Positions 22,501-39,644 of a stretch of 64,000 nucleotides of DNA are shown piece after piece; positions within the stretch are counted from its first letter, which is position 1, and every line of letters starts with the position of its first letter. Origin of the DNA: Stieleria magnilauensis (GTDB taxonomy: Bacteria; Planctomycetota; Planctomycetia; Pirellulales; Pirellulaceae). The notes under the pieces were generated by a model. The model was not told the origin of the DNA. It made no database searches and saw nothing but the letters and a program-made list of their open reading frames with translations. Both the position numbers and the translations under genes were made by a program. The stretch lies in the NCBI GenBank assembly GCA_007753675.1, contig CP036432.1:9891381-9955380 (forward strand), read 5' to 3'.

Positions 22501-23578
22501 TCACGGCGAAGAAGACGAAGCGGTCGCGGAAGACCAAACCGTCGAGGACGCTGAACCACCCGCCGGAAGCCTGGCGGCGATGCTGATCCGTGACTTGGCC
22601 GGCGACGACGAAGCACCGCAAGAACACAGCGATGCGAACGCAGACGAAGAAAACGCATACGATGAAAGCTCGTCTGACGATCACTCCTATCAGGACAACT
22701 CCTACGCCGACGATGTCTCCGCTGAATCAGCGGAATCCGAGGACTCCGTCGAGGAGGGCCATCATGCGACCTTTGTGATGGACAGCGAGATTGAGTTCTC
22801 CGCCGATGAATCCGATGGCGAATCCGACGCCTGGAGCCTGGAGTCTCCCCACCAGGACGAACCACTGGCAAACGACGCGACCGGTCTGGCGGAATCTTTC
22901 GATCAGCCGCAAGACGACCTCGACCGCGACGCCGCCGCAGAGGAATTCACGTCGCAGACCGCTCTGGTGTCCGAACACGACACCGTCGTGGCCGCCGACG
23001 ACGGGCCGGAAGACGATTCGATCGAAGCCTACATGAGCCGTTTGTTGCAACGCGTTCAAGGCGAAGATCAACCGAAGCAGCCTGCTCCGCCAGCGCCGGC
23101 CAGCGTTCCCGTCGCCGAAACCGAACAAGACGATTCCGCGATCGAGTTGGACGAATCGGACGAAGCGGAGTTGGAACAGTCACATCCGGTCGAACCGTCG
23201 ATCAAGGACAGCGTGCCGTTGGTTCCGCGTTCGCAAGCGCCGGAGTTATCGCGCAACCTTTCGGCGATGCGTGAATTGGCCAACCAGTCGGCCCGCAATG
23301 CCGTCTCGCGCAGCATTCGAATCCAGGCGCGTGACACCCAGATGAAAGCCGCACTCAAAGGCGGTTTGGCTCTCGGGTTCGCCACCATGGGGATCGCCGC
23401 CTTTATTTTCGTCACGTGGTCGGGGACAATCAAATTCGGATTGGTCGGCGCGTTCCTGGTGCTCGCCGGTGTGTTTGGGCAAGAAGGCTACGTGCTGGCG
23501 AGAGATGCCCGACGTCGTTTGGCGCTGGCGGACCAGCAAACCGCCGAAGAGGCCGACGACGACTTGGCTGACGAATAG
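19505..23578 (+). CDS. large FHA-domain, coiled-coil, C-terminally membrane-anchored protein
   Basis: The start is the GTG at 19505 or the ATG at 19508; AAGGAA lies about eight bases before the former. The product is about 1357 residues. An FHA domain (about 90-165; RYTFGSGEGCSIRL, LRPMHAVL, CNGNRV) should bind phosphothreonine. A very long, highly charged coiled coil follows (about 185-720). Next is an extremely acidic, low-complexity region (about 720-1240) with short repeats. Two hydrophobic segments near the C-terminus (about 1280-1325) end in a basic cytoplasmic tail. The layout suggests a membrane-tethered filament or scaffold that docks to phosphorylated proteins, possibly substrates of the local Ser/Thr kinases. 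I do not recognise a named family. Confidence 0.8.
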   Translation: MMNDQNDGPSSPTDLHQSNHDIKFVASAGHLRDDDSSRIGIIPDALTQTLPRLGGLTAGGASLEGSRSIPATGQTALEFRVIRPGAPVRRLRLTGNRYTFGSGEGCSIRLDDESLRPMHAVLLRDAHRILMRAYSVPLECNGNRVTESVLRLGDIIRMGQYRFELLAAPEASAPRHAALETRESVLHERLTQLSQQWHARHAECEVRESRCDQRESELHGRETELWSRAESLQHRESHLLAQEAAVREIQETYAATQEELKSLRMREIETSEALQEKEAELQHKSDLLRERQAELERRQAEWQQREEQYAEHAAEAQRKLEQTQQQAQSASDAVGRMRDEFSTLSEQLTELRERHSELQAREKREQQEHERLRSELEAARDQAIDSVAESEAKRQATESELERVSADLQSTREELARIREESKQCQHELSEKLRATGQELQATREDAEQSRRAAEEEQAYNEKRIAELEERLAKIQENREESERSTDEEIAALHRKHASAEEARAEADEARAQAEAARQTAEAARTDAEAVAEELRENIRQLQENVTEATQEASQLRIDQEGANASIRQLELLVDQTKNNQSAQQESWTQECDQLRQTIEDLSIQLAAANVELGQLQSANEALSYELAQSSSGDDDHETSNQAVIDSEQFRILEQELDSARQEIERLRETHAETVSRLETERQESESALRHEIEQLRDEIASAQQTAEAHLQGFAQATDLEPANSPSPATEQFVESGENRWRLESEQSVEQSSHLYEERGYEEGYDDGSLEGGESEPVNWSQTESLSDAADPTTDDPQASDPTAETPSEGQAATDQSVSWHDELPEQAIDGAIDEIEHNVEQAISDYEAPQSESAWADHQDHGPQDHGDQDHGDTDPSAGDMADVDIAHDFSIESTTEQESPLDWSAFMPGGDVQSSSDDDTQSPEQVLDQEPEQVLDQEPEQAEPEQAGLEANAWDQSSWQTDAEQSGEANDYEATQQWDGVTDDGNDTASSGLDSLLHGEEDEAVAEDQTVEDAEPPAGSLAAMLIRDLAGDDEAPQEHSDANADEENAYDESSSDDHSYQDNSYADDVSAESAESEDSVEEGHHATFVMDSEIEFSADESDGESDAWSLESPHQDEPLANDATGLAESFDQPQDDLDRDAAAEEFTSQTALVSEHDTVVAADDGPEDDSIEAYMSRLLQRVQGEDQPKQPAPPAPASVPVAETEQDDSAIELDESDEAELEQSHPVEPSIKDSVPLVPRSQAPELSRNLSAMRELANQSARNAVSRSIRIQARDTQMKAALKGGLALGFATMGIAAFIFVTWSGTIKFGLVGAFLVLAGVFGQEGYVLARDARRRLALADQQTAEEADDDLADE
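22082..22126 (+). repeat. 15-bp tandem repeat (3 units) in FHA gene
   Basis: Three near-identical 15-bp units with core CAAGACCATGGC encode Asp-His-Gly-containing pentapeptides in the acidic region of the FHA protein. Confidence 0.8.
22277..22324 (+). repeat. 24-bp exact tandem duplication in FHA gene
   Basis: Two identical 24-bp units encode PEQVLDQE twice, followed by degenerate continuations. It is probably a recent slippage event within the acidic region. Confidence 0.8.
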
Positions 23579-25773: not shown

Positions 25774-25889
25774 GGGACGTCACATTCGACTCGGTTTGCG
25801 GGGGAACGCCGGCAGCCCCTTACCCAGGGCGGCGGCTTGAACTTCCGTGCGCAAGCTTATAGGCCGATCGCAACCCGGCGTCAAATCCG

Positions 25890-26114
25890 CCCCCATCATT
25901 CCGCCCCCATCATTCCGCCCCATCATTCCGCCCCCATCATTCCGCCCCCATCATTCCACCCCCATCATTCCGCCCCCATCATTCTGCCCCCATCATTCTG
26001 CCCCTATCATTCTGCCCCTATCATTCTGCCCCTATCATTCTGCCCCTATCGTTTTGCCCCCATCATTCTGCCCCGTATTATTCTGCCCCTATTATCCCTG
26101 TCCCCATCATTCTG
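25890..26114. repeat. 14-bp tandem array, about 16 units
   Basis: Sixteen consecutive units of consensus CCCCCATCATTCnG (one of 13 bp, two of 15 bp). The left units end in CCG and the right ones in CTG with CCCCT starts, so variants are clustered. The array lies 20 bp beyond the stop codon of the SWIM gene, so it would be transcribed into that gene's 3' region. There are no spacers, so it is not a CRISPR. Expansion by slippage is likely; any role in transcription termination is a guess. Confidence 0.95.
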
Positions 26115-26134
26115 CCATCCCTCCCGCATTCTTC

Positions 26135-28018
26135 TCACGACAACCAATCATTCCAAGCCTGCCGATGGTAGTCGGCACGAAACACGTTTTGATAACGATC
26201 GGTAGCGGCCAACAGGTGGCACAAGCCGGGCAGATCGTCTGCGCCCCCAGAGTCTGAAACTCTCGATTCGGTCGCCGCCGACGCCACGGCATCGGCAAGC
26301 CTTGCGGCGGTCGGCAACAATTGACGCTTCAACATTCGGATCATTCGACGATGCCCGCCGGAGGCCGGTGACGCGACGCTGCCGCGACCACCGAGGACCA
26401 GCGTCCGTTGCTGGCGCGCGAGTCCCGCCACGCCATCGACGCTGGGTTCCGCCTGTCCACGCGAATCGACGGTGGCAGCGAGCGCAGGACTGCCTGGCTC
26501 TGGATCGGTCCGCGAAAAGAAGTGCCGTTCCAATCGATCCAGCCCCAACTGGCAGACGTTCTGCCATGATTCAGGTAGCTCCAGTCTCGGATCGTCATCG
26601 GAACCCGCGCGGCACGCTTCAACGCGTATCGCAAGCGCATCAATCGATCCGGCCTGGTGGCGTCGGACACGCCCGATGACGAAAACGTTCAGTCCTGGGC
26701 TGCGGGCGACGAGTTCCAGGTTTTCACGATACGGCACCTGGTCGGTGTCCAACGCGATCCGCAGCCTCAACGGACGCGAAACACCATCCGCCTTGACCAA
26801 CACGGCGTCTTCGTGCCGCCCGAGGACCTGACAGCGAAACGCGACGAAGTCTGGTTCCGCCGGAGCCGTCGGTCCGACCGATTCGTCCGTCGCAAAGAGC
26901 TGTTCGACCTGGTCGGCCAAGGATCGCCCGAAACGCGACGTCCACGCCGCTGATTCATCGATCGGCCGGTCGGTCTGTTTCCGCACGGCCCAGCGAGTCT
27001 TTGATCCTCGTCCCAGTCGCCGATCCGGCGATGCCGTCATGTTTTGAACGTCCACACTCGACCGGCAAAGCTGAAACGCAGAAATCGTCGTACCGCCCAA
27101 TTCGATTCCTCCGCGATACGCTTGCGACGCCAAGTCGGCTTCTCCGGGGCGCACTTCGCTGACCTGATAAATCTTTCCGTCGTCCGCCATCATCGAAACA
27201 CACACTCCCGCGTAGCCGGACCGCGTCACGATCGGTTCGGCCACCAGACTGACCAGCCGCGAAACGTCCACCGGTTCAAACGATCGACGGACCTGGCCGA
27301 TCGTTTCAAGGTCGGCCACAGGTTGCCGGAGCACACGCCGTGCGATGACGACCGCGCGGGCGAGATCGCTTTGTAACTGCGAGACATCCGTGTTGCCCGA
27401 TTGTGCCCGCAACCGCACCACGCCCTCGACAACACTCAGGACGGCCGACGATAAATGAACCAGTCCCGCGGCGCGGCATTGATGCGCCGCCCGCAACAGC
27501 GCCGATTGCAACACGACGCCACAGCGCCGAGCGCCGCTGCACAACATCAATTCGATCGCATCGAGACAGCGGCTGGCGGCGTCACGCATCGCAGCGTTGA
27601 TTTCAATCACCGATGATTCGTCGCCAGGCTGCGATCCAGGCTGCGATCTAGGCTGCGATTCAGATGCTTGATTCGGAGCAGCTTCGTGATCCGAACGTGC
27701 CGCATCGGTCTCGATCGGCAAACAGCTGACACAAGCCAGCAGATGAAAACACTTCGGCGACAGCAAGCACGAACAAGAAACCTGTTGGAGTTGCGTCACG
27801 CGTTTCGACTCGCCATCCCATTCCAATCGCACGGTTTCGTCACCAGTGCTGATCGTCACGCAAGTCGCTTCGGCAGTCCAAGTCCAAGCGTGTGCGATCG
27901 CCGGATCTTTGTCCAAGCGTTTTCGCACGCGCGAAGGCGCCGAGTCGATCAAGTTGGCGAGCACGTCGGCGCGAACACTCAGTTGGCCGCAGATGCTGGG
28001 GCGATCCGACTCATCCAT
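26135..28018 (-). CDS. SWIM zinc-finger protein (YehQ-like)
   Basis: The ATG at 28018 is chosen because GGAGG lies eight bases upstream; it overlaps the stop of the preceding VWA gene by 8 bp. The product is about 627 residues. The SWIM motif is CSC-x5-CFH at about residues 81-91 (CSCLLSPKCFHLL), a zinc-binding fold predicted to contact nucleic acid or protein. The rest is helical and poorly characterised. SWIM proteins of this kind are the last member of the enterobacterial yehL-yehM-yehP-yehQ gene set, and the same order is seen here: MoxR ATPase, DUF5682-VWA, SWIM. It is probably translationally coupled to the VWA gene and works with it. Confidence 0.85.
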   Translation of the reverse strand: MDESDRPSICGQLSVRADVLANLIDSAPSRVRKRLDKDPAIAHAWTWTAEATCVTISTGDETVRLEWDGESKRVTQLQQVSCSCLLSPKCFHLLACVSCLPIETDAARSDHEAAPNQASESQPRSQPGSQPGDESSVIEINAAMRDAASRCLDAIELMLCSGARRCGVVLQSALLRAAHQCRAAGLVHLSSAVLSVVEGVVRLRAQSGNTDVSQLQSDLARAVVIARRVLRQPVADLETIGQVRRSFEPVDVSRLVSLVAEPIVTRSGYAGVCVSMMADDGKIYQVSEVRPGEADLASQAYRGGIELGGTTISAFQLCRSSVDVQNMTASPDRRLGRGSKTRWAVRKQTDRPIDESAAWTSRFGRSLADQVEQLFATDESVGPTAPAEPDFVAFRCQVLGRHEDAVLVKADGVSRPLRLRIALDTDQVPYRENLELVARSPGLNVFVIGRVRRHQAGSIDALAIRVEACRAGSDDDPRLELPESWQNVCQLGLDRLERHFFSRTDPEPGSPALAATVDSRGQAEPSVDGVAGLARQQRTLVLGGRGSVASPASGGHRRMIRMLKRQLLPTAARLADAVASAATESRVSDSGGADDLPGLCHLLAATDRYQNVFRADYHRQAWNDWLS

Positions 28019-31000
28019 CGATCGAACCTCCGGCGACGTTGCCACGGATTTGATCGCCCACCCACTGTGCCAGTTTTTCGGGACTGACCGCGGCGACCGC
28101 CATCCCTGCCGACGCCATCATTTGTGCCAGCCCCTGGTGGAACCGGGCTTGGCCGGAATCATCCAGGGAAGCCAGCCCGATACAACGGACGCCCGAGTCG
28201 ACCAGCGCCCGCACTTCGGCCAGCATCCCGGGAATCGAAACGCCTTCTTCAAAGTCGGTGACCAACACGACGATCGAACGCGACGGCACCTTGATGCCCG
28301 CGCGAGCTCCACGCAGACCGAGTCCGATATCGGTTCCGCCGCCGACATCGACTTCCAACAACAGTGCCAGCGGATCGTCGACTTGATCGCTCAAGTCGAT
28401 CAGTTCGGTGCTGAAAGCAAGAAACCGCACGGACAACGCAGGCAAAGCGTCAAAGATCGCAGCAACCAGCGCGCTATACACCACCGACGCGGACATCGAT
28501 GCCGAAACGTCGACGACGAACGTCACGTGCCAGTCCAATTCCCGTCGTGCCGGGGCGTTGAAGATCAATTGATCGGCGACGATCGTGGGACGGCCATCGG
28601 ATCGACGCCGCCCGTTGGCCAAGTTGGCTCGAATCGTGCGTGATAGATTCAGCCGCCGCGATCGACGGCGAGTCGGTCTCGGCGTGGAAAGACCACTCAG
28701 CGCGGTCTGCAGACGGACCGCCAACTGCCGGGCAAGGTCATCGGTGATCTTTTGGGCAAGCTGTCGAAGCTTGGCCATGCGTGATTCCGGCATCGCGCCG
28801 GCCAACGAAAGAACTTGCTGCAGTAAATCAATCGACGGCGTGATGGAGTCGACGTCCAAGTGCCCGACCGCGGACGCGTTGCCTGACGCCGCGGCTTGTC
28901 CGAGCACCTCCTGGCAGACGTCGCCGCCGAACAACGCCTCTAAGTCGTCGGCCCACTGCGCGGTCGTCGGTTGCGGTGCCTCTTGTCCGCCGCTGCCACG
29001 CCGTTGCTGAAAATCACCGCGTGACCCCTCGCCGCGTCCTTTTCCGAACAATTGGTCCAACGACTGGGCGGCGATCGATGCGTTTCGCGAAGGGTTTTCC
29101 GGCGGCAAGCCGAAGATCAATCGCCAGCGATCGGCCATCTTGATTTCGTTGTCCGCGATCGATTCGGAACGCAATGGTTCGGCAGCCATGTCGACATCGG
29201 AGTCGTTTTGATCTGTCACGCCCTGGTCCGCTTCGCGAATGAAACGATCGACGCTGGGAAACGCTTCCGCGACGGACGCTGCCGCAACCAAGTCGGCGTG
29301 TCGCAAACGGGCGACGTGCAATGTGATCGCGTCGGCATCGCCGTCATTGGCCCAGTGCTGGTGATCGATGGCCGATCCGCGTTGGTCCAGTCCCTGCAAT
29401 CGCAACTCCAGCAACCGTTGTCGGTCGGCCGGCGAAAACGGATCAAAGGCCCCCCGAAGTGCCGGCAATCGTGACAGAAACTCCGCGTCGGACAATTGAC
29501 TCAAACCGGACTGGAACGGGTCCAGCCACAACGGATCGTTCTGCATGCGAGACAGCAAGATCTGCACGGCACCGGACAGTCCGTCGCGCAAGCGTGTCCG
29601 GCCGTCGCGATCGCCGGCACCATCCAACCAGCCGATCATCAACTGGCCCAACTCAGTCGCGTCCATCGCATCGAGCGCGCACAAACTGGCCGCCGCGGCG
29701 CCGCGCATGCGGTCGCTGCCGTGACGAATCGTTTGACGGCACCACGTCACCAGTTGCCGTCGCTGCCCCGCTGTCTCTGCTTGCCGCGATTGAGTCGTCT
29801 GAATCAACGCATGCAGATCCCCGCTGAACCACTGGATCAAGTCCGCCAGACAGACCACGTCTTCGATCGACGAACTGCCACGCAGCCCCTGCAGACGCTC
29901 CAAGCAGGCGCGCAACAATTCATCCGCTGAAACCCTCGCATCGGGCATCCGGTAAACCGGTACGATCGGGGGCGCCGCATCGGCCGGGTCGAGCGGCAAC
30001 CCGGGCAGGTGCGACGCAGCGATCCGCACCATCAACGTGACGGCTTCGACCAGTTCCGAGATTGCGGCGGTTTGGCAAAACGTCTCGTCCAGCCGACACA
30101 ACGCCTGCGTCGTCAACGTCTGCAGCCCGCATTCGCTGGCGATCCCCAATTGATCCAAGATCATTCTTGGCGACGTTTCGTTCGCCTCATCGGGACCGAC
30201 TCGGCGACCGGCCCTGCGAACGATTTCTTCGGCAACCTGAGTCAGGGTGACACCGAATCGGGCGACACTTTCGATCGTCGCCGCCGTCGTCTGTTGCCAC
30301 TCGACCCGCCAACGCTCGGTCAAGTTTTCACGGTTTCCCTGCGTCACCGTGTCGACTCGCTGGGCATACGGGATCCCAGCCGCCACCATCCGCCGTAGCA
30401 CCACCGCGCGGGCCCGATCTTTGGGGCTGCGTAAGACGTCCAAGCGAAGCTCTTTTTCAGTTTCCGATCGCGTCGATTGAAATCGTCCGCGCTGCCGTTG
30501 CGGTTTCGCTTTGGCGGCTGCCTCTCGTCCCGGCAACCCCAGTTGCTCAAGCAGTTGATCGATCGAAACGGAAAGTCCGCAGCGTGGTGCGGACGGCGTG
30601 ACCACTCCTGTCCGGTCCCCGATCAGCACATCACCGGCGGCTGCCGAGACGGCTCGACCACGCCCCATCACGTCGCCGTGGACCAAACAGGTTTGCAAGG
30701 ATTCAACGAACTCGCCACGACCGGGAACCGCCAGTCCGCGCAGCCGCGCCAGGTCACGCATCATCCGCAGCGTTTCAGCGGCGTCCGGCGTTCCGGCGAC
30801 ATGGCCGAACTGACGCAAACGACGACAGACACCGGTGGCCAGCTCCACGGCGGCGTCTTCCATTTCCGCGTTCGATTTCGCTTGCACCATGTGTTGATGC
30901 CAGACGGGATCCAAGACGCCGGCCGGATAGCCGCTGCGTTCGTCGAGTTGTTCAAAAGAATACGGGATCAGAGAAACGCCGACCGATGACGTGTCGGATT

Positions 31001-31721
31001 CGATCGCGGCAAGTTCGGCTTGATCACGGTCGTGTGACGCGTCAACGACGGCGGGCAGCAAGACCGGCGCGTGAAAGGCGCCGACGATGGCCACCGTTTT
31101 CCCATTGCTCTCGCGGATCGCCTGACGCATCGCGGCTTCGCGAAGCAAATCGCGCGGCGAGGGTTCCTGATCATCCTGACGGACCGCCCAGCCGAACGTC
31201 AGCGCCGCGCGGCGGATGATTTCCGGGTCTGCATCACAACCGGGCGATTCCACCAACCGTTGCCACAGATCACCGACATCGCTGGCACCGACGCGTCGTT
31301 TTAATTGCGACAAAACGTCGACCGACTCGGTCGCCTGGCTCGATGGTGTCGGGTTGAGTTCCGATGCGGCAGACTTGGATTTGACCGACACCGAAAGATC
31401 GCAGGCACGGACGGGAACACCGTTGGCCGACGCCCAGCGGATCGCGGCAAACTCGGGTGAAAAATCGGCCAGCGGATAGAACATCATGCCGCCGTCGGGA
31501 TCGACCGCGGAGATCGCGATCGGGGCCTGCGTTTGTGGATCGGCGATGTACTTTATCCAATCGGATAGATCCGACGGCAGCTCGATCAGGATCGCATCGG
31601 GCGCGAACCGATCCAACAGCACCGGCATCGCACGGGCCAGCATCGCCGAATGATGACGCACCCCGATCAACAACGGTTTGGTGCATTGATGCAACGCGGT
31701 GCAGCAGGCGATGGGGTCCAT
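28011..31721 (-). CDS. DUF5682-VWA fusion protein (YehM + YehP-like)
   Basis: A 1236-residue protein. The N-terminal ~750 residues match the DUF5682/YehM type: it opens with GVRHHSAMLARAMP and ILIELPSD and includes VAIVGAFHAPVLLP. A von Willebrand A domain fills about 1060-1225, with an intact MIDAS signature DVSAS (near residue 1069) and VVLVTDFEEG. In E. coli these two parts are separate proteins (YehM and YehP) encoded next to each other; here they are one chain. The VWA part is likely the metal-dependent adaptor for the neighbouring MoxR ATPase, as in other MoxR-VWA pairs. The SWIM gene starts before this one ends (8-bp overlap), indicating coupled synthesis. Confidence 0.85.
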   Translation of the reverse strand: MDPIACCTALHQCTKPLLIGVRHHSAMLARAMPVLLDRFAPDAILIELPSDLSDWIKYIADPQTQAPIAISAVDPDGGMMFYPLADFSPEFAAIRWASANGVPVRACDLSVSVKSKSAASELNPTPSSQATESVDVLSQLKRRVGASDVGDLWQRLVESPGCDADPEIIRRAALTFGWAVRQDDQEPSPRDLLREAAMRQAIRESNGKTVAIVGAFHAPVLLPAVVDASHDRDQAELAAIESDTSSVGVSLIPYSFEQLDERSGYPAGVLDPVWHQHMVQAKSNAEMEDAAVELATGVCRRLRQFGHVAGTPDAAETLRMMRDLARLRGLAVPGRGEFVESLQTCLVHGDVMGRGRAVSAAAGDVLIGDRTGVVTPSAPRCGLSVSIDQLLEQLGLPGREAAAKAKPQRQRGRFQSTRSETEKELRLDVLRSPKDRARAVVLRRMVAAGIPYAQRVDTVTQGNRENLTERWRVEWQQTTAATIESVARFGVTLTQVAEEIVRRAGRRVGPDEANETSPRMILDQLGIASECGLQTLTTQALCRLDETFCQTAAISELVEAVTLMVRIAASHLPGLPLDPADAAPPIVPVYRMPDARVSADELLRACLERLQGLRGSSSIEDVVCLADLIQWFSGDLHALIQTTQSRQAETAGQRRQLVTWCRQTIRHGSDRMRGAAAASLCALDAMDATELGQLMIGWLDGAGDRDGRTRLRDGLSGAVQILLSRMQNDPLWLDPFQSGLSQLSDAEFLSRLPALRGAFDPFSPADRQRLLELRLQGLDQRGSAIDHQHWANDGDADAITLHVARLRHADLVAAASVAEAFPSVDRFIREADQGVTDQNDSDVDMAAEPLRSESIADNEIKMADRWRLIFGLPPENPSRNASIAAQSLDQLFGKGRGEGSRGDFQQRRGSGGQEAPQPTTAQWADDLEALFGGDVCQEVLGQAAASGNASAVGHLDVDSITPSIDLLQQVLSLAGAMPESRMAKLRQLAQKITDDLARQLAVRLQTALSGLSTPRPTRRRSRRLNLSRTIRANLANGRRRSDGRPTIVADQLIFNAPARRELDWHVTFVVDVSASMSASVVYSALVAAIFDALPALSVRFLAFSTELIDLSDQVDDPLALLLEVDVGGGTDIGLGLRGARAGIKVPSRSIVVLVTDFEEGVSIPGMLAEVRALVDSGVRCIGLASLDDSGQARFHQGLAQMMASAGMAVAAVSPEKLAQWVGDQIRGNVAGGSIDG

Positions 31722-31808
31722 GGACTGTCTTTCAAGATTGGGGAATCAAGGGCCCGTAGGCTCGCGCCCAAAGCCACCTGTGTTGGCACCAAGCTGGGTG
31801 TTCTATGT

Positions 31809-31943
31809 TAGCGGTAGGGCGCGAGCCCTCCGGTCTTTCGAGGTGTTTGAACGCTGGGACCGGACGGCTCGCGCCGTTCCGCAAACTCCTTCAGGGTTTC
31901 GGCACGGCTACCGGACGGCTCGCGCCGTTCCGCAAACTCCTTC
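31809..31943. repeat. palindromic repeat, family A, with a 34-bp duplicated arm
   Basis: The left arm starts TAGCGGTAGGGCGCGAGCC and is followed by an inverted partner ACCGGACGGCTCGCGCCG.... The partner segment (34 bp, to ...CAAACTCCTTC) occurs twice, at 31859-31892 and 31910-31943, identical in both copies. A further GGCTCGCGCCC half-site lies at about 31750. It occupies the gap between the MoxR gene and the DUF5682-VWA gene. Confidence 0.75.
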
Positions 31944-31955
31944 GGTCGCGTTGTT

Positions 31956-33122
31956 TCACATCGTTTCATCCAGCACGCCGCGCATTTCGCTCAGCTTTGT
32001 CCACAGCGGTTCACCGTTTTTTGCGCGGCGTTGGACGGGACCGTCCCAGTATCCGAGCAATCGTTCACGGTCTTTCGCGTCGTCTTTGAGCACGACACCC
32101 AGCAGGTGTCCGGGCATCCGCGAGACGGGATCGAATCCGGAAGGGAAGAAGGCGTTTTCGCGCATGATGGCGGTGGCCACCGCGACCGCTTCGGCGGTAC
32201 TCATCACCGTGCTCGGCCGATTGACCTGCCAGCCTTCGTCGGTACGTCCGCTGCGAAGGTCGCGAAACACCGTGACCAGTAGCTCGATCAACGACTCATC
32301 AATCGGTTTGTCGCTGCCCGATTCATGCAGCAGCGCGGCGGCGCGGGAGGACACCAATTGGCATTCGCGTAGGGCATCGGAAATCGGCGCAATGGTTTCG
32401 AAATTGAATCGCCGTTTTAAGGCCGCCGACATTTCGGACACGCCGCGGTCGCGTAGATTGGCCGTCGCGATCAGCGAGAATCCGGGCGCGGCGAAGACAC
32501 TGGAATCTTCGTCACCGAGTTCGGGCACCATCATGCGTCGTTCGCTCAAGATCGAGATCAACGCGTCTTGGACTTCGGGCAAACAACGTGTGACTTCTTC
32601 GAAGCGGACAATCTTTCCTTGCCGCATCGCTTGCATGACCGGCGACGGCACCAGTGCTTCGGGCGTCGGGCCGCGATCGAGCAACATGGCATAGTTCCAG
32701 CCGTAACGGATCTGGTCTTCGGTCGTGCCGGCGGTGCCTTGAACGGCCAGCGCACCGGTGCCGCTGATCGCGACGGCCAGCAATTCGCCGAGCATCGACT
32801 TGGCAGTGCCGGGTTCACCGACCAACATCAGCCCACGCTCGCCGGCCAGCGTGACGACGCAGCGTTGGATGATGTCGCGGGGTCCGACAAATTTTTCGCT
32901 GATCGCCAATGCGGTCGACTTTTTGGTGCCGACCTTTTGGCCGTCGGTGCCACAGATGAAATCGACGATCGAAGCCGGCGAGAGCAGCCAACCGTCGGGG
33001 CGAGGATTGGAATCCGCATCACGCATCACCGCCAGCTCCTCCGCATAGCGAATCTCCGCCGGCGGTGCTTGGATCTTTCGCGTCGGTGATGAAGCGGAGG
33101 CTGAAGTTTTCTTTTTTGCCAT
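31956..33122 (-). CDS. MoxR-type AAA+ ATPase (YehL-like)
   Basis: The start at 33122 (MAKKKTSASASS) is preferred; a longer frame to 33248 adds 42 residues with no family resemblance. The product is 388 residues. Walker A is GEPGTAKS. The Walker B region reads VRFEEVTR, with FEE instead of the more common DE(I). The sensor/arginine-finger region is TANLRDRGVSEMSAALKRRF. The size and order match YehL. MoxR ATPases pair with VWA proteins to remodel target complexes. Here the VWA partner is encoded 234 bp downstream on the same strand, separated by palindromic repeats. Confidence 0.9.
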   Translation of the reverse strand: MAKKKTSASASSPTRKIQAPPAEIRYAEELAVMRDADSNPRPDGWLLSPASIVDFICGTDGQKVGTKKSTALAISEKFVGPRDIIQRCVVTLAGERGLMLVGEPGTAKSMLGELLAVAISGTGALAVQGTAGTTEDQIRYGWNYAMLLDRGPTPEALVPSPVMQAMRQGKIVRFEEVTRCLPEVQDALISILSERRMMVPELGDEDSSVFAAPGFSLIATANLRDRGVSEMSAALKRRFNFETIAPISDALRECQLVSSRAAALLHESGSDKPIDESLIELLVTVFRDLRSGRTDEGWQVNRPSTVMSTAEAVAVATAIMRENAFFPSGFDPVSRMPGHLLGVVLKDDAKDRERLLGYWDGPVQRRAKNGEPLWTKLSEMRGVLDETM

Positions 33123-33615
33123 CGGCAGTTGAGGAGCAAATAGATGAAGTGAGAAATCAATCGCGTCGAGTGTACCAAATCGATTCCGGCCTTTGCTCCG
33201 CAGGGCGACGCCCTGAAAGCCAGTGCCTTGGGGCCCCGCAACCGCCACTGATGCTCGCTGGGAAGCTCCGGAACCTCGATCATGCGAGTATTTGAATCGG
33301 CCGCTGGATTAAAGTAAGAAGATTTCGGAGGTAAGAAAATGAATTCCGGCTGCAATCCATGGTTGTCCGCAATTTTCTTACCTCCAAAATCTTCCTACCC
33401 GCGATTCTTCAACATCCGAAGCAACAAAACAACTATCTCTATCTCGCCAAGGATTCGACCAGCCGAACGCAGTAGCGAGATTGGCAAACTGCAGACCGTG
33501 TTGGACACCGACGCGTATTTTGGATCTCCCTTTGCGGCACCCGGCGGCCGACACCGGTCATCCTGGGGCGCGCGTTTGCTACACACAACACTCAGCTGTG
33601 TGCACGACGGTAGCA
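33123..33615. other. intergenic region inside the AAA+/VWA cluster
   Basis: About 490 bp between the giant protein gene and the MoxR gene, both minus strand. It contains the family B palindromic repeat (33311-33400) and presumably the MoxR promoter. No coding region with recognisable features was found. Confidence 0.6.
33311..33400. repeat. palindromic repeat, family B
   Basis: Near-perfect inverted repeat of about 28 bp. The left arm reads AGTAAGAAGATTTCGGAGG... and the right arm ...CCTCCAAAATCTTCCTACC, separated by about 31 bp. A second copy is at 42543-42637. The ends are made of the purine-rich pattern GGTAGGAAGATTTTGGAGG. Confidence 0.8.
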
Positions 33616-36600
33616 TCACCCTCCCAACGTCTCTTCATAACGCGGCGCGTCTCCCTCGGTGACGCGGTTGTATGCGAATTGAAACTGTGACGGGACGGGG
33701 CGTTTGCAAACCAACAACGCCGCATTGCCTCCCCGCAGTCGATCGGTTCCGTCGTGGCCGTACATCGAGAGCTTCCACGTTTCCACCGGTAGATTGGGAA
33801 GTTTGAGCGGTTCCCATCCGCCTGGCAAAAAGATGTCACGTCCCGCGCGGCTGCGTTTGGCGCTCACCACCAATTCCTTGTCGACCAATTCGGCCGCAGC
33901 CTTTTTGTATTCCGCAGGCTTCCAACCGTTCCATCCTTGAATGTTTTTGGACGTCGGATCCGGCAACGCCAAAATTTGCAGATACAACGTTGCGGCATGG
34001 TCACTGACGTCCTGGTCCTTTGCGACTTGGGCAACCAGCTCCGGCACAGAAACTCGTGGGTCCTGTTCCCAGGAACCGTCGGGAAGATCGCTGCCAAGGT
34101 TGGCGGCCATCAATTCGTCGGCAACGTCGGAGCGGAGTTCCAACACAAATCTGGCGAATTCCAACATCCCCGATCCATCGCCTTCGTAGTGAAACGTGAT
34201 CTTCCCTGCCGCGGCGAGCATCGCGATGTCATCCGTCGTGTGTAGTTTTGACGTGCGGAAATGCAGCCGACAAACGGGCGGATAGAGGGCACCTACGATC
34301 AATCCGCCGTCAAACTCATAATGCCCGTCCTTCTTTCGTTGGCAGGGTGCAATCAGTTTGGAAAACTGGTCGACGGTCGCTTCAACATCCACTTGATTGT
34401 CGCCGTACCAATTCTTTGCCGTGTAGGTCGCCCCGAACGGCAGCGTGGTCGAAGGATCATCCAACCAGGCTCGCGTCGCTTGGATCAATTCGGGAATCTT
34501 GCGTCGTGCGGGATCGCCAAATGGCGTCGCATAATTGATCCAGCCCACGGCATCCAACAACTGGGGCAAGACCTTCTGCAAGTCGAGTGGAGGTTCGGGG
34601 GTGTACGTGGCATCGAGGATGTGTTGCTGATGCCGCTTGGATTGCGACGAATACTGAAACGTCGTCTTGCGACGCTCCAAAACTTTCGACCCTTGGGGAT
34701 CGGAAAGCAAACCCAAGAACGCTTTTCGGTCCAATCTTGGATAGCCGAATCCGACGTGCTCCAACGGCGCCGCCGCTTCAGGGGGAAGCGTCACCGATGA
34801 TTCGCGACGCTTTTTCCAAGCGGCAACCATCCGGGCAAATGCTTCGTTCTTGCCATCGCCGATCGCACCCGCGGGATCGTCCAACAGGCCGGTGGACATC
34901 AACGACATCGGCAACGCCTCCCCGTCGAGCCCCGAGATAGCCGCTTTGATTTCGTTGAGCTTCCAACCGTAGTGCGACCGTAGTTCCTTGGTCAACTTCT
35001 CTTGGCCGTAGCGGTTGGTCCGCAGATCCGCCATCCACGCCAATCCAACTTGGACGGGTGACGCGCCCAGCTGTCCGGCGGCATCGGCGAGCAACTCGGC
35101 ATCCACCAGCGGCAGCGTTTCCAGCTTGCGGACCGCCTCGACAAATTGGTTGACTTGCTTCGATCCCCAGGTGCGTTTGACCTCGATGGTCTCCAGAATC
35201 GAATAGGGCTCGGGCGGCTTCGGCGTGCCGGATTCGATGTATTCCAGCACGTGAATCTCCTCGGTTCCGTAACCTCCGTACGAATACGCGAGGTAGCGAT
35301 GTTTTCCATCGGTAAATGCGACGGCTTTGTCACGGGCCGGCGCGTAAGGTTTGTTCTTGTCCAGCTTGGCGTCGGCTTCGGAAAACCCCTTGGCGATGTA
35401 GTAGACGAATTTGCCTTTCCAATCCAGGATGCCGCGTTTGGCCAAGTACGCGAGTCCCTGGAGGCCCAAACTGTCTTCGAAGCGAGACTTGGCCGGGGCA
35501 TTCTCAGTCGCTTCGGTATCGGCCCCCACCGTGGACTGTGTCCAAAACCATTTCCAGGCCGCCGAGCAGGGATCGTCGATCGCGGAAACCCAGTCGGGAT
35601 TGCCGCCGGGAATCTTTTGTTGGTTGCCGGTTTCCAGAAAGTTCGTGGCAACCTCGATGTGAGCTTTGGACGCGTTTGATGCCCCATAACGATAGATCCC
35701 CGGACGGTCTGAGCCGGGCCAAGTGTAGATCAGATCCGCGACGCCGGCTGCCGAGGGCGCGAACTCCGGCTTTTCGTTTGCCTCCGTCGGCGTTTCCTTT
35801 TCTTTAGGTGGTTCCGTGATCCGATCCAAAAAGCCACCCAGCGAGGCTTGTTCAGCCGCCATGATGCTGATGATTTTCCCCAGTCCTTTCTGCAACCGCG
35901 GCGGGGCGTCGGGCAACCATTTCGCGACCGCTTCGGCAACGGCATTGCGGTCGGGATCCGTCTCGGCTTCTTCCTTTTTCTTTCGCAACGCTTGATGCTG
36001 AGCCTTTCCGGCGTCGAGAAACAACTTGCATTGCTTGACCGAGATTTTGCGCAGCTTGGCCGACGCCTGCTTTGAACGAACGGTGTAGTGGTGAAAGAAC
36101 CGATACGACAGATGCATCGGCTGGCCCAAGTGATAACGGTTCGATCTCTCTTGCATCAGCGCGATGCCGATTCCCGTTTCGCTGTCGATGACGAGTCCGT
36201 CAGCGGTGATGATCCAGTGATGTTTCGATTCGGGTTTGTCCATGATCGCAAGGGGGATCCTGGCGTCTTCGAACCCGTGCGGGTCTTTCTCCAGCGTGCA
36301 TGTGCGGCCGTCGATACCGCGCCCGATCGCGCTGCCGTCACGCGTGGTCAGAACACTCCAACCGAGCATGCCGTCGGCGATCCCCAACGGCGACGCGTCC
36401 ATGCCGTCGGGCGCCGGCATCAGGAAACAATGCTGCCAGTGAACGGTGTTGCTTGAGGAGAGATCTTTTTCAAACCAGTCCGGCACGCTCTCGCGGATCT
36501 TTTTTCCGCTGACCGGATCCAGTTCGACCAGCGACGTCGTGCCGATCATTTCCCCAGAGTCTGCGTGATAGTGGTACTGTGTGGGATCGGTTTTTTGGAT

Positions 36601-38751
36601 CCAGCAACGCCCACCGTCGCTCAACCAGTGCGCCCACGTCGGCAATTTCGTATCGCCCGGCTTGAGCATTCGGCTGCCAAAGAACACCCCGTCTTGAAAC
36701 GGCATCCAGAATCCTGGAGGCGAATACCAGTAACCGCCGTCGAGTTTTTTGACGTCACCGGGGTCGCTGAGCCAACAGATCTTGCCTTCGTAGTTGGAAG
36801 TATCCCGGAAGACCACTGCGGTGTCGTTTCCGACCGGCAGAACCGCCTGGGGCTCGGTGGACTTGGTGAACGTAAACTCCGCGCGGACCCGGTGACCGGC
36901 GGGGCCGAATTCATCGATCTTTCCATCGCGGGCGAAAATCAACGTGGGAAACGATTCATAAAACGAATCGTTTCGTCGCCGGCTCTTGATCACCGGCAAC
37001 CGACTCTCGTCGTCGGCCTCATCGAGCGGTTGCCAACCGTATTCATCCAAAATGCCGCCGACCAACGTGCGTCGAAGCGTGCCGACCAGATCCAGTTTCC
37101 TCAGTCGCTTCAGAACGACGGGAAACCGCTCGAGCGTGCTGCGTCCGATGGCCGAACGAATTTGATTCAACGTGACTTCGAAATCCGCCAGCCCGCCGCT
37201 TTCCAAAATCGACAGCTTGTGATCCAAAAATTCCCACCAGATGTCTTTGAGCGCATCGTGCCCGGCGGCGGCTTGATCGAATCGACGCCCGCCGTGTCCG
37301 TACTGGTCACCATACCGCCGCGAGGATTGGTCGCGGCAGATCAGGTTTGGAATCATGTTGCGCACCCGCGATGCGAAACGTTCATCGTCCAAAACATGAA
37401 CGAGTGATGAGTTGCGGCGGGGATGGTCGACATCGGACTGCATCCAACCGCCGAACCCGATCCCGGTCCCTTGGGGAATGTCGGCCAACGGGATTTCCAA
37501 ATCCAAACAGGCTTCGATGACATCGACGTCGGCCGGCACGGACGCCCAGCCTTGTGACTTGCCTAACTGCAACGGGATCGCGTCTTGACGGAGCGCCGCG
37601 GCGGCCGATTCAAGCAAGTCGAAAAAGCGTTTCGGCGGAGGGGTGCTTGCCAACGAAAGTCGGCCGAACCAGCCCGCTCGTCCGCCGGGGATTTCGACGT
37701 CGGCAGGAAACTTGTCCGCTGGCAACGCGAGCAACCGCAGCACGTTCCACTTTTCAAGTTGATCGATCCATTTCCAAGCCGTGGACTCGGAGTAGTAGTT
37801 GGATTCGCAATTGGTATGAACCAGTAACCAAACGCCGAAGGAATCGGATTGCTTGACCAGCTGTGCGATCCGCTTGCTGACCGAGGACCAAAATTGCTGG
37901 GGGGCCCGCGACATCGACGGCGCGGAAATGATCTCCTTCAACAACCGATCGATTTCCGCATCGGGATCCTTGCCCGCCAGCTTTGCCAGCCGAATCAAAT
38001 CTTTGGCCGCACCGGCCATCGGCGGCATGCCACCGAGCGTCCGCCGCACGAGCAAGTCGCGAAACGTTTCAAAAGCTTCCTCCGGTTCGAATTGATTCTC
38101 CAAGTCTTTGGTGTATTCGCCGAGTGCTTTCCCGGACAAGCAACCGCTGAGGGCGAATTCCAATACGGCATCACGTCGTCGTTCGCGATCGACGTCGAGC
38201 GCGTGGACACGTTCGGCTTCGAGTGCTTTGCCGAGTCCGCGTCCGGCGTACGTCTGGTTGCCGAGTTCTTTGAAGATTCTGGCGGCCTCTTCCCAGAACG
38301 GCGGCAGAAAATGTCGGACCGATCGATTCAATTCCTCGGCCATTTCGGAGAACGCGTCCCAGGCGTGGCCGGGTTTCGACTTCGCCTTGCGGGCCGCGGC
38401 TTTGATCCGTTTGACCAACACCAACGCGTCCTTGGCGTTTTCCGGATGCGTGATCAAAGCCCAGCTGGCGAACCCCAGCGCCCGTCGACCTTGAATCGCC
38501 AGCGGTTTGCTTTCGCCAGCCGATTGAAGCCCCAGAAACTCCATCGCCAAGTCTTCGGCCGGTCCCAGACGTTCGGCGCCCAGACGCACGATTTTTCGGT
38601 CACCGAGCACCTGGCCGGTGTAGGTTCGCGCGACGACTTTTTCGGAGCTTTTGGGGTCGACCTTGGACTTGATCGGCAACATGCCGCCGGCGACCAACTG
38701 AGCCTCCAGAGCTTTCTTTGATTTGCCGGGTTTCTTCGTCGCAACACTCAT
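33616..38751 (-). CDS. giant cluster protein of unknown function, 1711 residues
   Basis: The ATG at 38751 is chosen because GGAGG lies seven bases upstream and it overlaps the stop of the preceding gene as ATGA; the frame to 38970 adds spurious sequence from that gene. After a Lys-rich start (MSVATKKPGKSKKALE), the first ~480 residues are helical, possibly HEAT-like. The middle (about 540-850) is rich in Trp/Tyr/Gly beta strands and may be propeller-like. The final ~850 residues are mixed helical. No signal peptide or catalytic motif was found. It might replace the N-terminal part of MolR-type proteins, whose C-terminal DUF4132-like part appears to be encoded by the preceding gene. I cannot name a family. 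Confidence 0.75.
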   Translation of the reverse strand: MSVATKKPGKSKKALEAQLVAGGMLPIKSKVDPKSSEKVVARTYTGQVLGDRKIVRLGAERLGPAEDLAMEFLGLQSAGESKPLAIQGRRALGFASWALITHPENAKDALVLVKRIKAAARKAKSKPGHAWDAFSEMAEELNRSVRHFLPPFWEEAARIFKELGNQTYAGRGLGKALEAERVHALDVDRERRRDAVLEFALSGCLSGKALGEYTKDLENQFEPEEAFETFRDLLVRRTLGGMPPMAGAAKDLIRLAKLAGKDPDAEIDRLLKEIISAPSMSRAPQQFWSSVSKRIAQLVKQSDSFGVWLLVHTNCESNYYSESTAWKWIDQLEKWNVLRLLALPADKFPADVEIPGGRAGWFGRLSLASTPPPKRFFDLLESAAAALRQDAIPLQLGKSQGWASVPADVDVIEACLDLEIPLADIPQGTGIGFGGWMQSDVDHPRRNSSLVHVLDDERFASRVRNMIPNLICRDQSSRRYGDQYGHGGRRFDQAAAGHDALKDIWWEFLDHKLSILESGGLADFEVTLNQIRSAIGRSTLERFPVVLKRLRKLDLVGTLRRTLVGGILDEYGWQPLDEADDESRLPVIKSRRRNDSFYESFPTLIFARDGKIDEFGPAGHRVRAEFTFTKSTEPQAVLPVGNDTAVVFRDTSNYEGKICWLSDPGDVKKLDGGYWYSPPGFWMPFQDGVFFGSRMLKPGDTKLPTWAHWLSDGGRCWIQKTDPTQYHYHADSGEMIGTTSLVELDPVSGKKIRESVPDWFEKDLSSSNTVHWQHCFLMPAPDGMDASPLGIADGMLGWSVLTTRDGSAIGRGIDGRTCTLEKDPHGFEDARIPLAIMDKPESKHHWIITADGLVIDSETGIGIALMQERSNRYHLGQPMHLSYRFFHHYTVRSKQASAKLRKISVKQCKLFLDAGKAQHQALRKKKEEAETDPDRNAVAEAVAKWLPDAPPRLQKGLGKIISIMAAEQASLGGFLDRITEPPKEKETPTEANEKPEFAPSAAGVADLIYTWPGSDRPGIYRYGASNASKAHIEVATNFLETGNQQKIPGGNPDWVSAIDDPCSAAWKWFWTQSTVGADTEATENAPAKSRFEDSLGLQGLAYLAKRGILDWKGKFVYYIAKGFSEADAKLDKNKPYAPARDKAVAFTDGKHRYLAYSYGGYGTEEIHVLEYIESGTPKPPEPYSILETIEVKRTWGSKQVNQFVEAVRKLETLPLVDAELLADAAGQLGASPVQVGLAWMADLRTNRYGQEKLTKELRSHYGWKLNEIKAAISGLDGEALPMSLMSTGLLDDPAGAIGDGKNEAFARMVAAWKKRRESSVTLPPEAAAPLEHVGFGYPRLDRKAFLGLLSDPQGSKVLERRKTTFQYSSQSKRHQQHILDATYTPEPPLDLQKVLPQLLDAVGWINYATPFGDPARRKIPELIQATRAWLDDPSTTLPFGATYTAKNWYGDNQVDVEATVDQFSKLIAPCQRKKDGHYEFDGGLIVGALYPPVCRLHFRTSKLHTTDDIAMLAAAGKITFHYEGDGSGMLEFARFVLELRSDVADELMAANLGSDLPDGSWEQDPRVSVPELVAQVAKDQDVSDHAATLYLQILALPDPTSKNIQGWNGWKPAEYKKAAAELVDKELVVSAKRSRAGRDIFLPGGWEPLKLPNLPVETWKLSMYGHDGTDRLRGGNAALLVCKRPVPSQFQFAYNRVTEGDAPRYEETLGG

Positions 38752-39644
38752 TGGTCTTCCTCCGTGGCATCGACTTTGCGTTTGGCGTAGATCTCCGAGG
38801 CCATGCGAACGCCTTCGCTGAACGTGACCGGACCGATCGAATTGATTTTCTGCGGCTGCTGACTCTCGTCGACGAACACCAATCCGCCTGTCCATGTTGG
38901 TGATTCGGGGTATTCGTCCCCGATGAAATACCGAGCCTCGATCAGGGCGTTGCTTTCCCAGATCCGGCACGTCGCGTAGCCTCCGCGAACGGGATAGCCC
39001 AAGCGGCGACAGTGGGACGTGGCGAAATTCAATTGTTCGAAGTGGCCACCGGAAAAATCATTGATGGACGTCAGATCCAGCTGCTCTTGAGTCGGTTGAT
39101 GAATCGGGCGATAGAGCTGGTCGATCGCTTGTCGGATGCCCAGGTCCCCGGCCAACTCACGCAATTCTTCCAAGTCACCGATCAGGATCGGGTGCGGCAC
39201 GCCGAACGAATCGGTTTTGATCCACTGGGTTTCGCCGTCCAGATCGATGACGCCCAGTCCGCGTTTCGCGTCGACGTCTTTCAGCAGCCCGGCGTTTTCG
39301 AGATCGAAGGCTCCACCGGCAGCGACGGGCACGACCACCATGTTTTCGATGCAGTCTCGCCAAGCCGAATCCGCCCAGATTTCCGTCACCACGGCGCGTG
39401 GGATCGACAGCGATCGCAACATCCAGCGCTCGACGGTGTGCAGACATTCCAGCTCGTGTTCGGCCAGCCAATCGGCCAGAGCGAGCAACGACTCGGCCGT
39501 TTCCGTTTCTTTGAGCCACTTGGGGACCGACGCGAGTGATTTGCCTTTGGGATTTTGACAAACCAGTTTTCCCGCCCGAAGCCCCAACTTGTAATCTCGC
39601 TCGGCATCCACCCAAGCGTCTTCCTGTTGGACCGTTGACACCAT
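38748..39644 (-). CDS. DUF4132-like (MolR C-terminal-like) protein
   Basis: The start at 39644 (MVSTVQQEDAW) follows GGAGGG at five bases; two earlier in-frame starts lack this. The product is 298 residues. The stretch ELAGDLGIRQAIDQLYRPIH, then PTQEQLDL, SGGHFEQ and LGYPVRGGYA, resembles the conserved core of DUF4132 domains, where a Q-x-x-QLYR-type motif is followed by a hydrophobic beta region. This domain forms the C-terminal part of MolR/YehI-type proteins, which accompany YehL-type ATPases in enterobacteria. Here it is the first gene of the block and is translationally coupled to the 1711-residue protein. The assignment is from motif memory and should be confirmed by profile search. Confidence 0.6.
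   Translation of the reverse strand: MVSTVQQEDAWVDAERDYKLGLRAGKLVCQNPKGKSLASVPKWLKETETAESLLALADWLAEHELECLHTVERWMLRSLSIPRAVVTEIWADSAWRDCIENMVVVPVAAGGAFDLENAGLLKDVDAKRGLGVIDLDGETQWIKTDSFGVPHPILIGDLEELRELAGDLGIRQAIDQLYRPIHQPTQEQLDLTSINDFSGGHFEQLNFATSHCRRLGYPVRGGYATCRIWESNALIEARYFIGDEYPESPTWTGGLVFVDESQQPQKINSIGPVTFSEGVRMASEIYAKRKVDATEEDQ

Follow-up and report, generated by a model that had tools for sequence, protein, structure and literature searches.

Positions 26135-39644 of the window (the whole stretch of 64,000 nucleotides analysed here, positions 9,891,381 to 9,955,380 of contig CP036432.1 of Stieleria magnilauensis) are occupied by five minus-strand genes, encoding, in transcription order, a short DUF4132 protein, a giant protein without known family, a MoxR-type AAA+ ATPase, a DUF5682::VWA fusion protein and a SWIM-motif protein. 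A preliminary description of the sequence had given this gene content and order, confirmed here at these coordinates, and had read the genes as a rearranged counterpart of the yeh cluster of E. coli. Comparison across genomes shows that the five-gene set is conserved across two phyla, and the window operon is a lineage of its own, here termed type C; that it encodes an ATP-driven remodelling machine is a tentative reading, developed below.

Gene content of the operon

The first gene of the operon (38748..39644; all features given here are on the minus strand) most likely has its start at 39644, as in the preliminary description, in an open reading frame (ORF) open to 39692, and its product matches Pfam DUF4132 (PF13569) with an E-value of 2.7e-26 and 93 bits against a gathering threshold of 27. 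The DUF4132 stop and the start of the giant (33616..38751) overlap as ATGA, and the most probable start of the giant is the ATG in this overlap, at 38751, which gives 1711 amino acids. The MoxR gene (31956..33122; ORF open to 33248) most likely starts near 33122, and its product is matched by Pfam AAA_5 (E 2.2e-36). The fusion protein of 1236 amino acids (28011..31721) matches Pfam DUF5682 (PF18934) over residues 34-971 (E 1.5e-137; 460.4 bits against a gathering threshold of 26) and VWA_CoxE over residues 1000-1221 (E 4.2e-49; 28059..28724), with the motifs of the metal ion-dependent adhesion site (MIDAS) type, DVSASM, GGTD and VTDF, intact in the VWA domain. The family assignments of the preliminary description were borne out by Pfam for DUF4132, DUF5682, VWA_CoxE and AAA_5, but not for SWIM: the last protein (26135..28018; ORF open to 28045) is not matched by any Pfam model at E 1 or below, the SWIM zinc finger (PF04434) included.

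Assignment of this protein to SWIM is accordingly based on the CxCx5CxH motif (CSCLLSPKCFH in the window, 27743..27775, residues 91-101 of the ORF), which is present in 14/14 type-C rows and whose Cys and His residues are invariant in all eight rows of a separate alignment of relatives. The window protein also aligns by profile to residues 257-578 of YehQ (hhalign 92.6%). In its Streptomyces homologue, Pfam SWIM is matched below threshold, with E 0.023 and 14.7 bits where 19.6 are required. At another locus, a yeh-type cluster encodes a yehQ-like protein (L035:4772-6874) with neither the SWIM motif nor a Pfam SWIM match. The original description of the SWIM domain, from 2002, reportedly already noted the neighbours of bacterial SWIM genes.

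Conservation of the five-gene set across two phyla

Profile matches to the giant were detected in 8/392 sampled genomes of the phylum, in 15/147 relatives and in 8/14 genomes of the genus. The phylum and relatives searches together gave 22 giant-bearing genomes, and 21 neighbourhoods were inspected, the fragmented genome G009 being left out. All five genes occur together in 15 of these 21 neighbourhoods, down to a giant identity of approximately 28-33%; 13 have the window order with separate genes (the giant being broken in G481), one has the DUF4132 gene and the giant fused (G166), and in one (G390, locus L057) the DUF4132-giant pair is convergent to the trio of MoxR, DUF5682::VWA and SWIM genes. 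Three clusters (G035, G140, G462) run off the ends of their contigs, and the genes that can be seen there keep the order; in G271 the match is confined to a short piece of the C-terminal domain of the giant. One locus counts against a single five-gene machine: in G248 the giant and MoxR genes are adjacent, and the remaining 2.7 kb of the contig contain no DUF5682 match.

Collinear copies of the set are present in the window, in six members of the genus and in further families and classes of planctomycetes. A linear plasmid of Streptomyces atratus also carries all five genes in this arrangement, annotated there as a DUF4132 protein, a DNA-binding protein, an AAA ATPase, a DUF5682 protein and a hypothetical protein, with identities to the planctomycete queries of 39% (DUF4132), 28% over nearly the full length (giant), 63% (MoxR), 39-41% (DUF5682::VWA) and about 30% (SWIM). 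Of 72,556 plasmid records, five, all from Streptomyces, align to 80% or more of the DUF5682::VWA query and also of the giant query; one of the five was read. Since the set recurs in such distant genomes, it is more than a chance assembly of genes.

Regarding DUF5682 loci in general, the domain was present in 21/60 relatives, and 20 wide neighbourhoods were fetched and typed, giving eight of type C, six of type A (the DUF5691 arrangement of E. coli SMS-3-5), two of type B (yeh), three of type D and one with DUF5682 alone, with the partner gene of two type-A loci assigned from its position only and locus L036 cut by a contig end. A large pentapeptide-repeat gene lies upstream of MoxR-DUF5682-VWA in the two type-D loci scanned (L030:3010-5565 and L041:3308-5779; L042 was not scanned), and a gene of about 370-390 amino acids without family is likewise upstream there.

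A tree of 29 MoxR rows, restricted to types A to D, places type C in one clade of 15 rows with support of 100/100, the Streptomyces plasmid copy included; type A (8 rows) and type D (3 rows) each have support of 100/99. The three type-B rows adjoin type C and are not resolved as a group, with YehL on a long branch; types C and B stand together on one side (100/99), and YehL is the closest among the types compared. The identities of the window MoxR point the same way, with 47.6% to YehL against 42.2% to the type-A MoxR of SMS-3-5. The P-loop of the window protein is GEPGTAKS; TAKS is found in 8/10 MoxR rows and TGKS in two type-D rows.

Comparison with the E. coli yeh cluster and other MoxR systems

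In E. coli K-12 MG1655 the gene order is yehI(DUF4132)-yehK-yehL(MoxR)-yehM(DUF5682)-yehP(VWA)-yehQ(SWIM), and both the families and their order are the same as in the window, all five families (SWIM by motif only) being in one cluster. The family set recognised in the preliminary description is indeed that of yeh, as seen from the MoxR identity, from identities of 31.6% between the VWA part and YehP and of 26% over partial length between the DUF5682 part and YehM, and from the SWIM-YehQ profile match. The word "rearranged", however, has to be given up, as the families are collinear with yehI-L-M-P-Q, and a rearranged yeh cluster peculiar to one planctomycete is ruled out by this order and by the cross-phylum lineage. 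What does differ, as had been proposed, is the architecture: E. coli has one long YehI with a C-terminal DUF4132 region where the window has a short DUF4132 protein and the giant, and DUF5682 and VWA are separate genes in E. coli but fused in the window.

The type-A cluster of E. coli SMS-3-5 (SWIM-DUF5691-MoxR-DUF5682-VWA) is related to the window at identities of 42% (MoxR), 26% (DUF5682) and 29% (VWA), but has DUF5691 as partner, the SWIM gene first, DUF5682 and VWA as separate genes and a MoxR of another clade. Among 5426 complete E. coli genomes the yehL-Q query was covered to at least 80% in 5162, and the type-A cluster was found in 30 by megablast, which misses relatives below about 85% identity. 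On one conjugative E. coli plasmid (L090), two IS26 copies enclose a stretch of chromosomal origin that runs from yehI to mlrA.

Regarding characterized MoxR systems, RavA-ViaA and NorQ-NorD are two-component systems in which VWA is not fused to DUF5682, and we know of no SWIM or DUF4132 partner in either. Like the window operon, they combine a MoxR AAA+ ATPase with a VWA partner (PMC3893208, PMC13036017, PMC9976466). The MoxR-vWA ternary conflict systems (Kaur et al., 2020; PMC7159879) likewise have MoxR, vWA and a large variable component, with a GxxxTAKS P-loop; in contrast, no VMAP, iSTAND, FtsH or beta-propeller component was detected by Pfam in the window operon. The text of that paper makes no mention of SWIM, YehL, Tiki, TraB, WGR or DUF4132, and that of PMC8195603 no mention of Tiki, TraB, WGR or SWIM.

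The DUF4132-giant pair

The short DUF4132 protein aligns to residues 877-1153 of YehI, its C-terminal part (hhalign 86.3%), and is 68-97% identical across six members of the genus. Searches with the giant gave nothing in Pfam up to E 1, nothing in NCBIfam and nothing in PADLOC at E <= 0.001, and 14 giant rows compared with Pfam gave no match apart from DUF4132 in one row. Its best-conserved region is the last 180 residues, a C-terminal domain with the invariant motif RxRAGR..(F/V)LPG. A profile of the whole giant gave chance-level matches only against the PDB, and the candidates that it is a divergent YehI (hhalign 0.3%) or a divergent DUF5691 protein (hhalign 0.1%) were dismissed; the window partner is accordingly not a WGR-DUF4132 protein of the YehI/MolR type, the giant being unrelated to YehI by profile. 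The middle segment has many strands in a structural model, but with a mean predicted local distance difference test (pLDDT) score of 34.7 no fold is claimed, and an initial guess of a beta-propeller from the sequence was dropped.

The pair is separable from the MoxR trio, because it occurs elsewhere without the other three genes. Within 12 kb of the DUF4132-giant pair of Streptomyces nigrescens, and of a broken pair in one Embleya, the MoxR, DUF5682::VWA and SWIM genes are all missing; in G022 pair and trio lie on different contigs. The Streptomyces nigrescens and Embleya loci are among five weaker giant matches outside the planctomycetes, all inspected, of which the other three are pieces of the giant or the giant alone. 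Given the ATGA overlap, the fusion of both genes into one in a single genome (G166, locus L062) and the occurrence without the other three genes, the pair gives the impression of a detachable module that acts as client or in targeting. The slot of the partner is occupied by DUF4132-giant in type C, by WGR-DUF4132 in type B and by DUF5691 in type A, and since the core of MoxR, DUF5682, VWA and SWIM is conserved while these partners are exchangeable, this suggests that the partner is a client or targeting device.

A predicted ChaN/Tiki-like domain in DUF5682

The N-terminal part of DUF5682 (about residues 16-240; 31002..31676) is likely to be a ChaN/Tiki-like domain that has been overlooked until now. 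Nine residues of this part, R22, H23, E47, D108, R194, E195, M198, G214 and H217, are invariant in 15/15 rows from E. coli to planctomycetes, in a motif order (GxRH, IExP, RExxM, GxxH) which we take to resemble the Tiki/TraB/ChaN pattern. Compared with a profile built from six ChaN domains of relatives, the DUF5682 N-terminus scored 49.1 over 186 columns (hhalign 89.0%; E 2.4e-6, a pairwise value that is not database-calibrated), whereas 100 column shuffles scored at most 23.0, the reversed profile 12.4, MoxR 27.3 and VWA 15.2; as a yardstick, ChaN scored 46.7 against TraB, both being established members of the superfamily. In this alignment H23, E47, M198, G214 and H217 of DUF5682 fall on H17, E46, M172, G193 and H196 of ChaN, so that a first GxxH, a Glu, a second GxxH and the conserved Met are shared. 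The superfamily is characterized by a 2His/2Glu motif (PMC6254334), and in DUF5682 both His and one Glu are aligned and invariant. DUF5682 is unlike ChaN and Tiki-TraB in its long C-terminal region, in its tie to VWA and in having Val for the first Glu.

The last difference, with V21 of the window protein at the position of Glu15 of the ChaN motif, is one of several points that weigh against the assignment. Pfam ChaN matched only 2/15 DUF5682 members, and weakly (best E 0.0047); the five type-C rows alone scored 25.9 against ChaN (5.3%) and the ten non-C rows 44.5 over a short stretch; and the match of the DUF5682 profile to TraB was weak (30.7, 14.7%). Comparison with a single Ere sequence gave nothing, as did comparison of ChaN with the same sequence, a search of the PDB by sequence returned no ChaN structure, and an AlphaFold2 model based on three closely related rows could not be used (pLDDT 37.3). 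If the assignment is correct, the domain, with H23, E47 and H217 as its signature, may be catalytic.

Proposed mechanism and alternative explanations

In MoxR/VWA pairs of other systems the VWA protein binds a substrate peptide and remodelling is driven by ATP (PMC7159879, PMC3893208), which agrees with the statement of the preliminary description that AAA+/VWA pairs usually remodel a target. On this basis the operon can be read as encoding an ATP-driven, two-part remodelling machine acting on or through DUF4132-giant, a reading to which we would give somewhat less than an even chance. The five proteins would form one complex, in which the remodeller would consist of a MoxR AAA+ ring and a VWA co-chaperone sharing one chain with DUF5682, the SWIM protein presumably acting as adaptor, and the client or targeting part would be the DUF4132 protein and the giant, the pair more probably serving as client than as sensor. 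Once a signal arrives, the VWA domain with its intact MIDAS would grip a segment of the client and MoxR would spend ATP to change the conformation of the client, while the ChaN/Tiki-like domain, held near the grip through its fusion to VWA, may cut or otherwise process it. A narrower version, in which MoxR and a Tiki-fold hydrolase joined to VWA make up an undescribed ATP-dependent processing machine that drives the client into a Tiki-type active site, with the client or targeting module swapped between lineages, is decidedly improbable as the evidence stands.

Alternatively, the operon could encode a classical MoxR maturation chaperone for the insertion of a cofactor or subunit or for assembly, with DUF4132-giant as the enzyme complex or scaffold and the ChaN-like fold used for binding only. 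Such a role is the usual job of known MoxR/VWA pairs (PMC3893208, PMC7159879), and it is favoured further by the CoxE type of the VWA domain, by the binding of haem by ChaN (as its Pfam name has it) and by the missing first Glu of the ChaN motif. The operon, however, contains no recognisable enzyme or cofactor gene, and the invariance of H23, E47 and H217 in all 15 rows goes beyond the needs of a binding scaffold; a maturation chaperone is regarded as unlikely.

The preliminary description had also raised the possibility of a defence module, for which neither support nor refutation came from PADLOC at E <= 0.001 or from the ordinary flanks. In the form of a MoxR-vWA conflict system, DUF4132-giant would sense an invader and the Tiki-like domain would be an effector held back until MoxR acts. 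The patchy distribution (8/392 planctomycete genomes for the giant, 30/5426 E. coli genomes for type A), the copies on plasmids, the GxxxTAKS P-loop of 8/10 MoxR rows and a sub-threshold match of the window MoxR to the Pfam bpMoxR model (E 9.5e-5, 22 bits against a cut-off of 27) are in keeping with this; PMC7159879 describes GxxxTAKS as common among the conflict systems of the FtsH and beta-propeller classes. Against it, the five proteins gave no PADLOC match at E <= 0.001 and a single noise-level match (0.027), to the giant, and the ten flanking ORFs of eight type-C loci are ordinary genes, including one kinase that matches many defence-kinase models, which is attributed to its kinase domain. 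In the window and three other members of the genus, the cluster occupies one and the same syntenic position, flanked by a dihydropyrimidinase-like gene on one side and by DUF1501/DUF1800 genes on the other, and the yeh counterpart is present in 5162/5426 E. coli genomes at the coverage given above, unlike an accessory defence system.

Regarding mobility, only the cluster aligns to the window in two other loci (L028, L029), while their flanks do not. A clean empty site was not found in G006: the cluster is absent and the left flank is preserved as far as 25116, but the right-hand neighbours are missing as well. The cluster was also considered as phage cargo, and this was rejected: 26 pattern matches to DUF5682::VWA and 30 to the giant in IMG/VR included no confirmed type-C relative. 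Type-A DUF5682 had no pattern match in IMG/VR and, among 50,697 phage records, was found on one unverified 14-kb faecal contig, taken for bacterial DNA. All in all, a conflict system is judged quite unlikely. A stress- or DNA-linked housekeeping role might, if anything, be more likely than defence, because a type-B relative joins WGR and DUF4132 and because a DUF4132 operon of Deinococcus radiodurans is upregulated on DdrO depletion (PMC8533742), the authors of that study leaving its role open.

That the five genes merely co-travel by neighbourhood habit, with DUF4132-giant and the MoxR trio acting separately and not in a single complex, is very unlikely: the pair does exist without the trio, the two lie in two places in G022 and are convergent in G390, but 15/21 neighbourhoods keep all five genes down to the lowest giant identities and gene order is kept across phyla, although translational overlap accounts for the DUF4132-giant pair only.

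Intergenic repeats and neighbouring features

The gaps on both sides of the MoxR gene are wider in the window than in relatives such as L028 and contain repeats, and the genes were therefore probably closer together formerly. The gap between MoxR and the giant (33123-33615) has an inverted repeat with arms of 27 nucleotides (33314-33340 and 33372-33398) belonging to an interspersed family, the gap sequence having 69 matches in the genome, itself counted. The gap from MoxR to DUF5682::VWA has direct repeats (34 nucleotides, two exact copies) and inverted repeats at 31748-31943; L024 and similar relatives are almost without a gap there. Directly downstream of the SWIM gene lies a tandem array of 16.2 copies of a 14-bp unit (25889-26116).

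Further away, window positions 19505-23578 encode a protein of 1357 amino acids with an FHA-like N-terminal match and a long coiled-coil-like stretch; its weak match to LmuB (E 0.0021) is probably due to the coiled coil. The AT skew of the window is marked (0.381) at 20-22 kb.

Implications for the operon family

The kind of system found here is already known, though uncharacterised, from E. coli yeh, and what is new is the likely ChaN/Tiki-like domain and the fused type-C lineage. In a search of 5.39 million full texts, DUF5682 and DUF5691 were named in none and DUF4132 in three, and no functional study of the yeh operon was found in the literature search. The E. coli version, by contrast, is matched at the above coverage in 5162/5426 genomes. 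Concrete and cheap tests of this family are now possible, starting from the predicted enzyme-like domain, the delimited client module and the second lineage with its fused protein. Should the ATP-dependent processing machine with its Tiki-type active site prove true, almost all E. coli would carry this processing core, so far overlooked, in the form of yehLMP.

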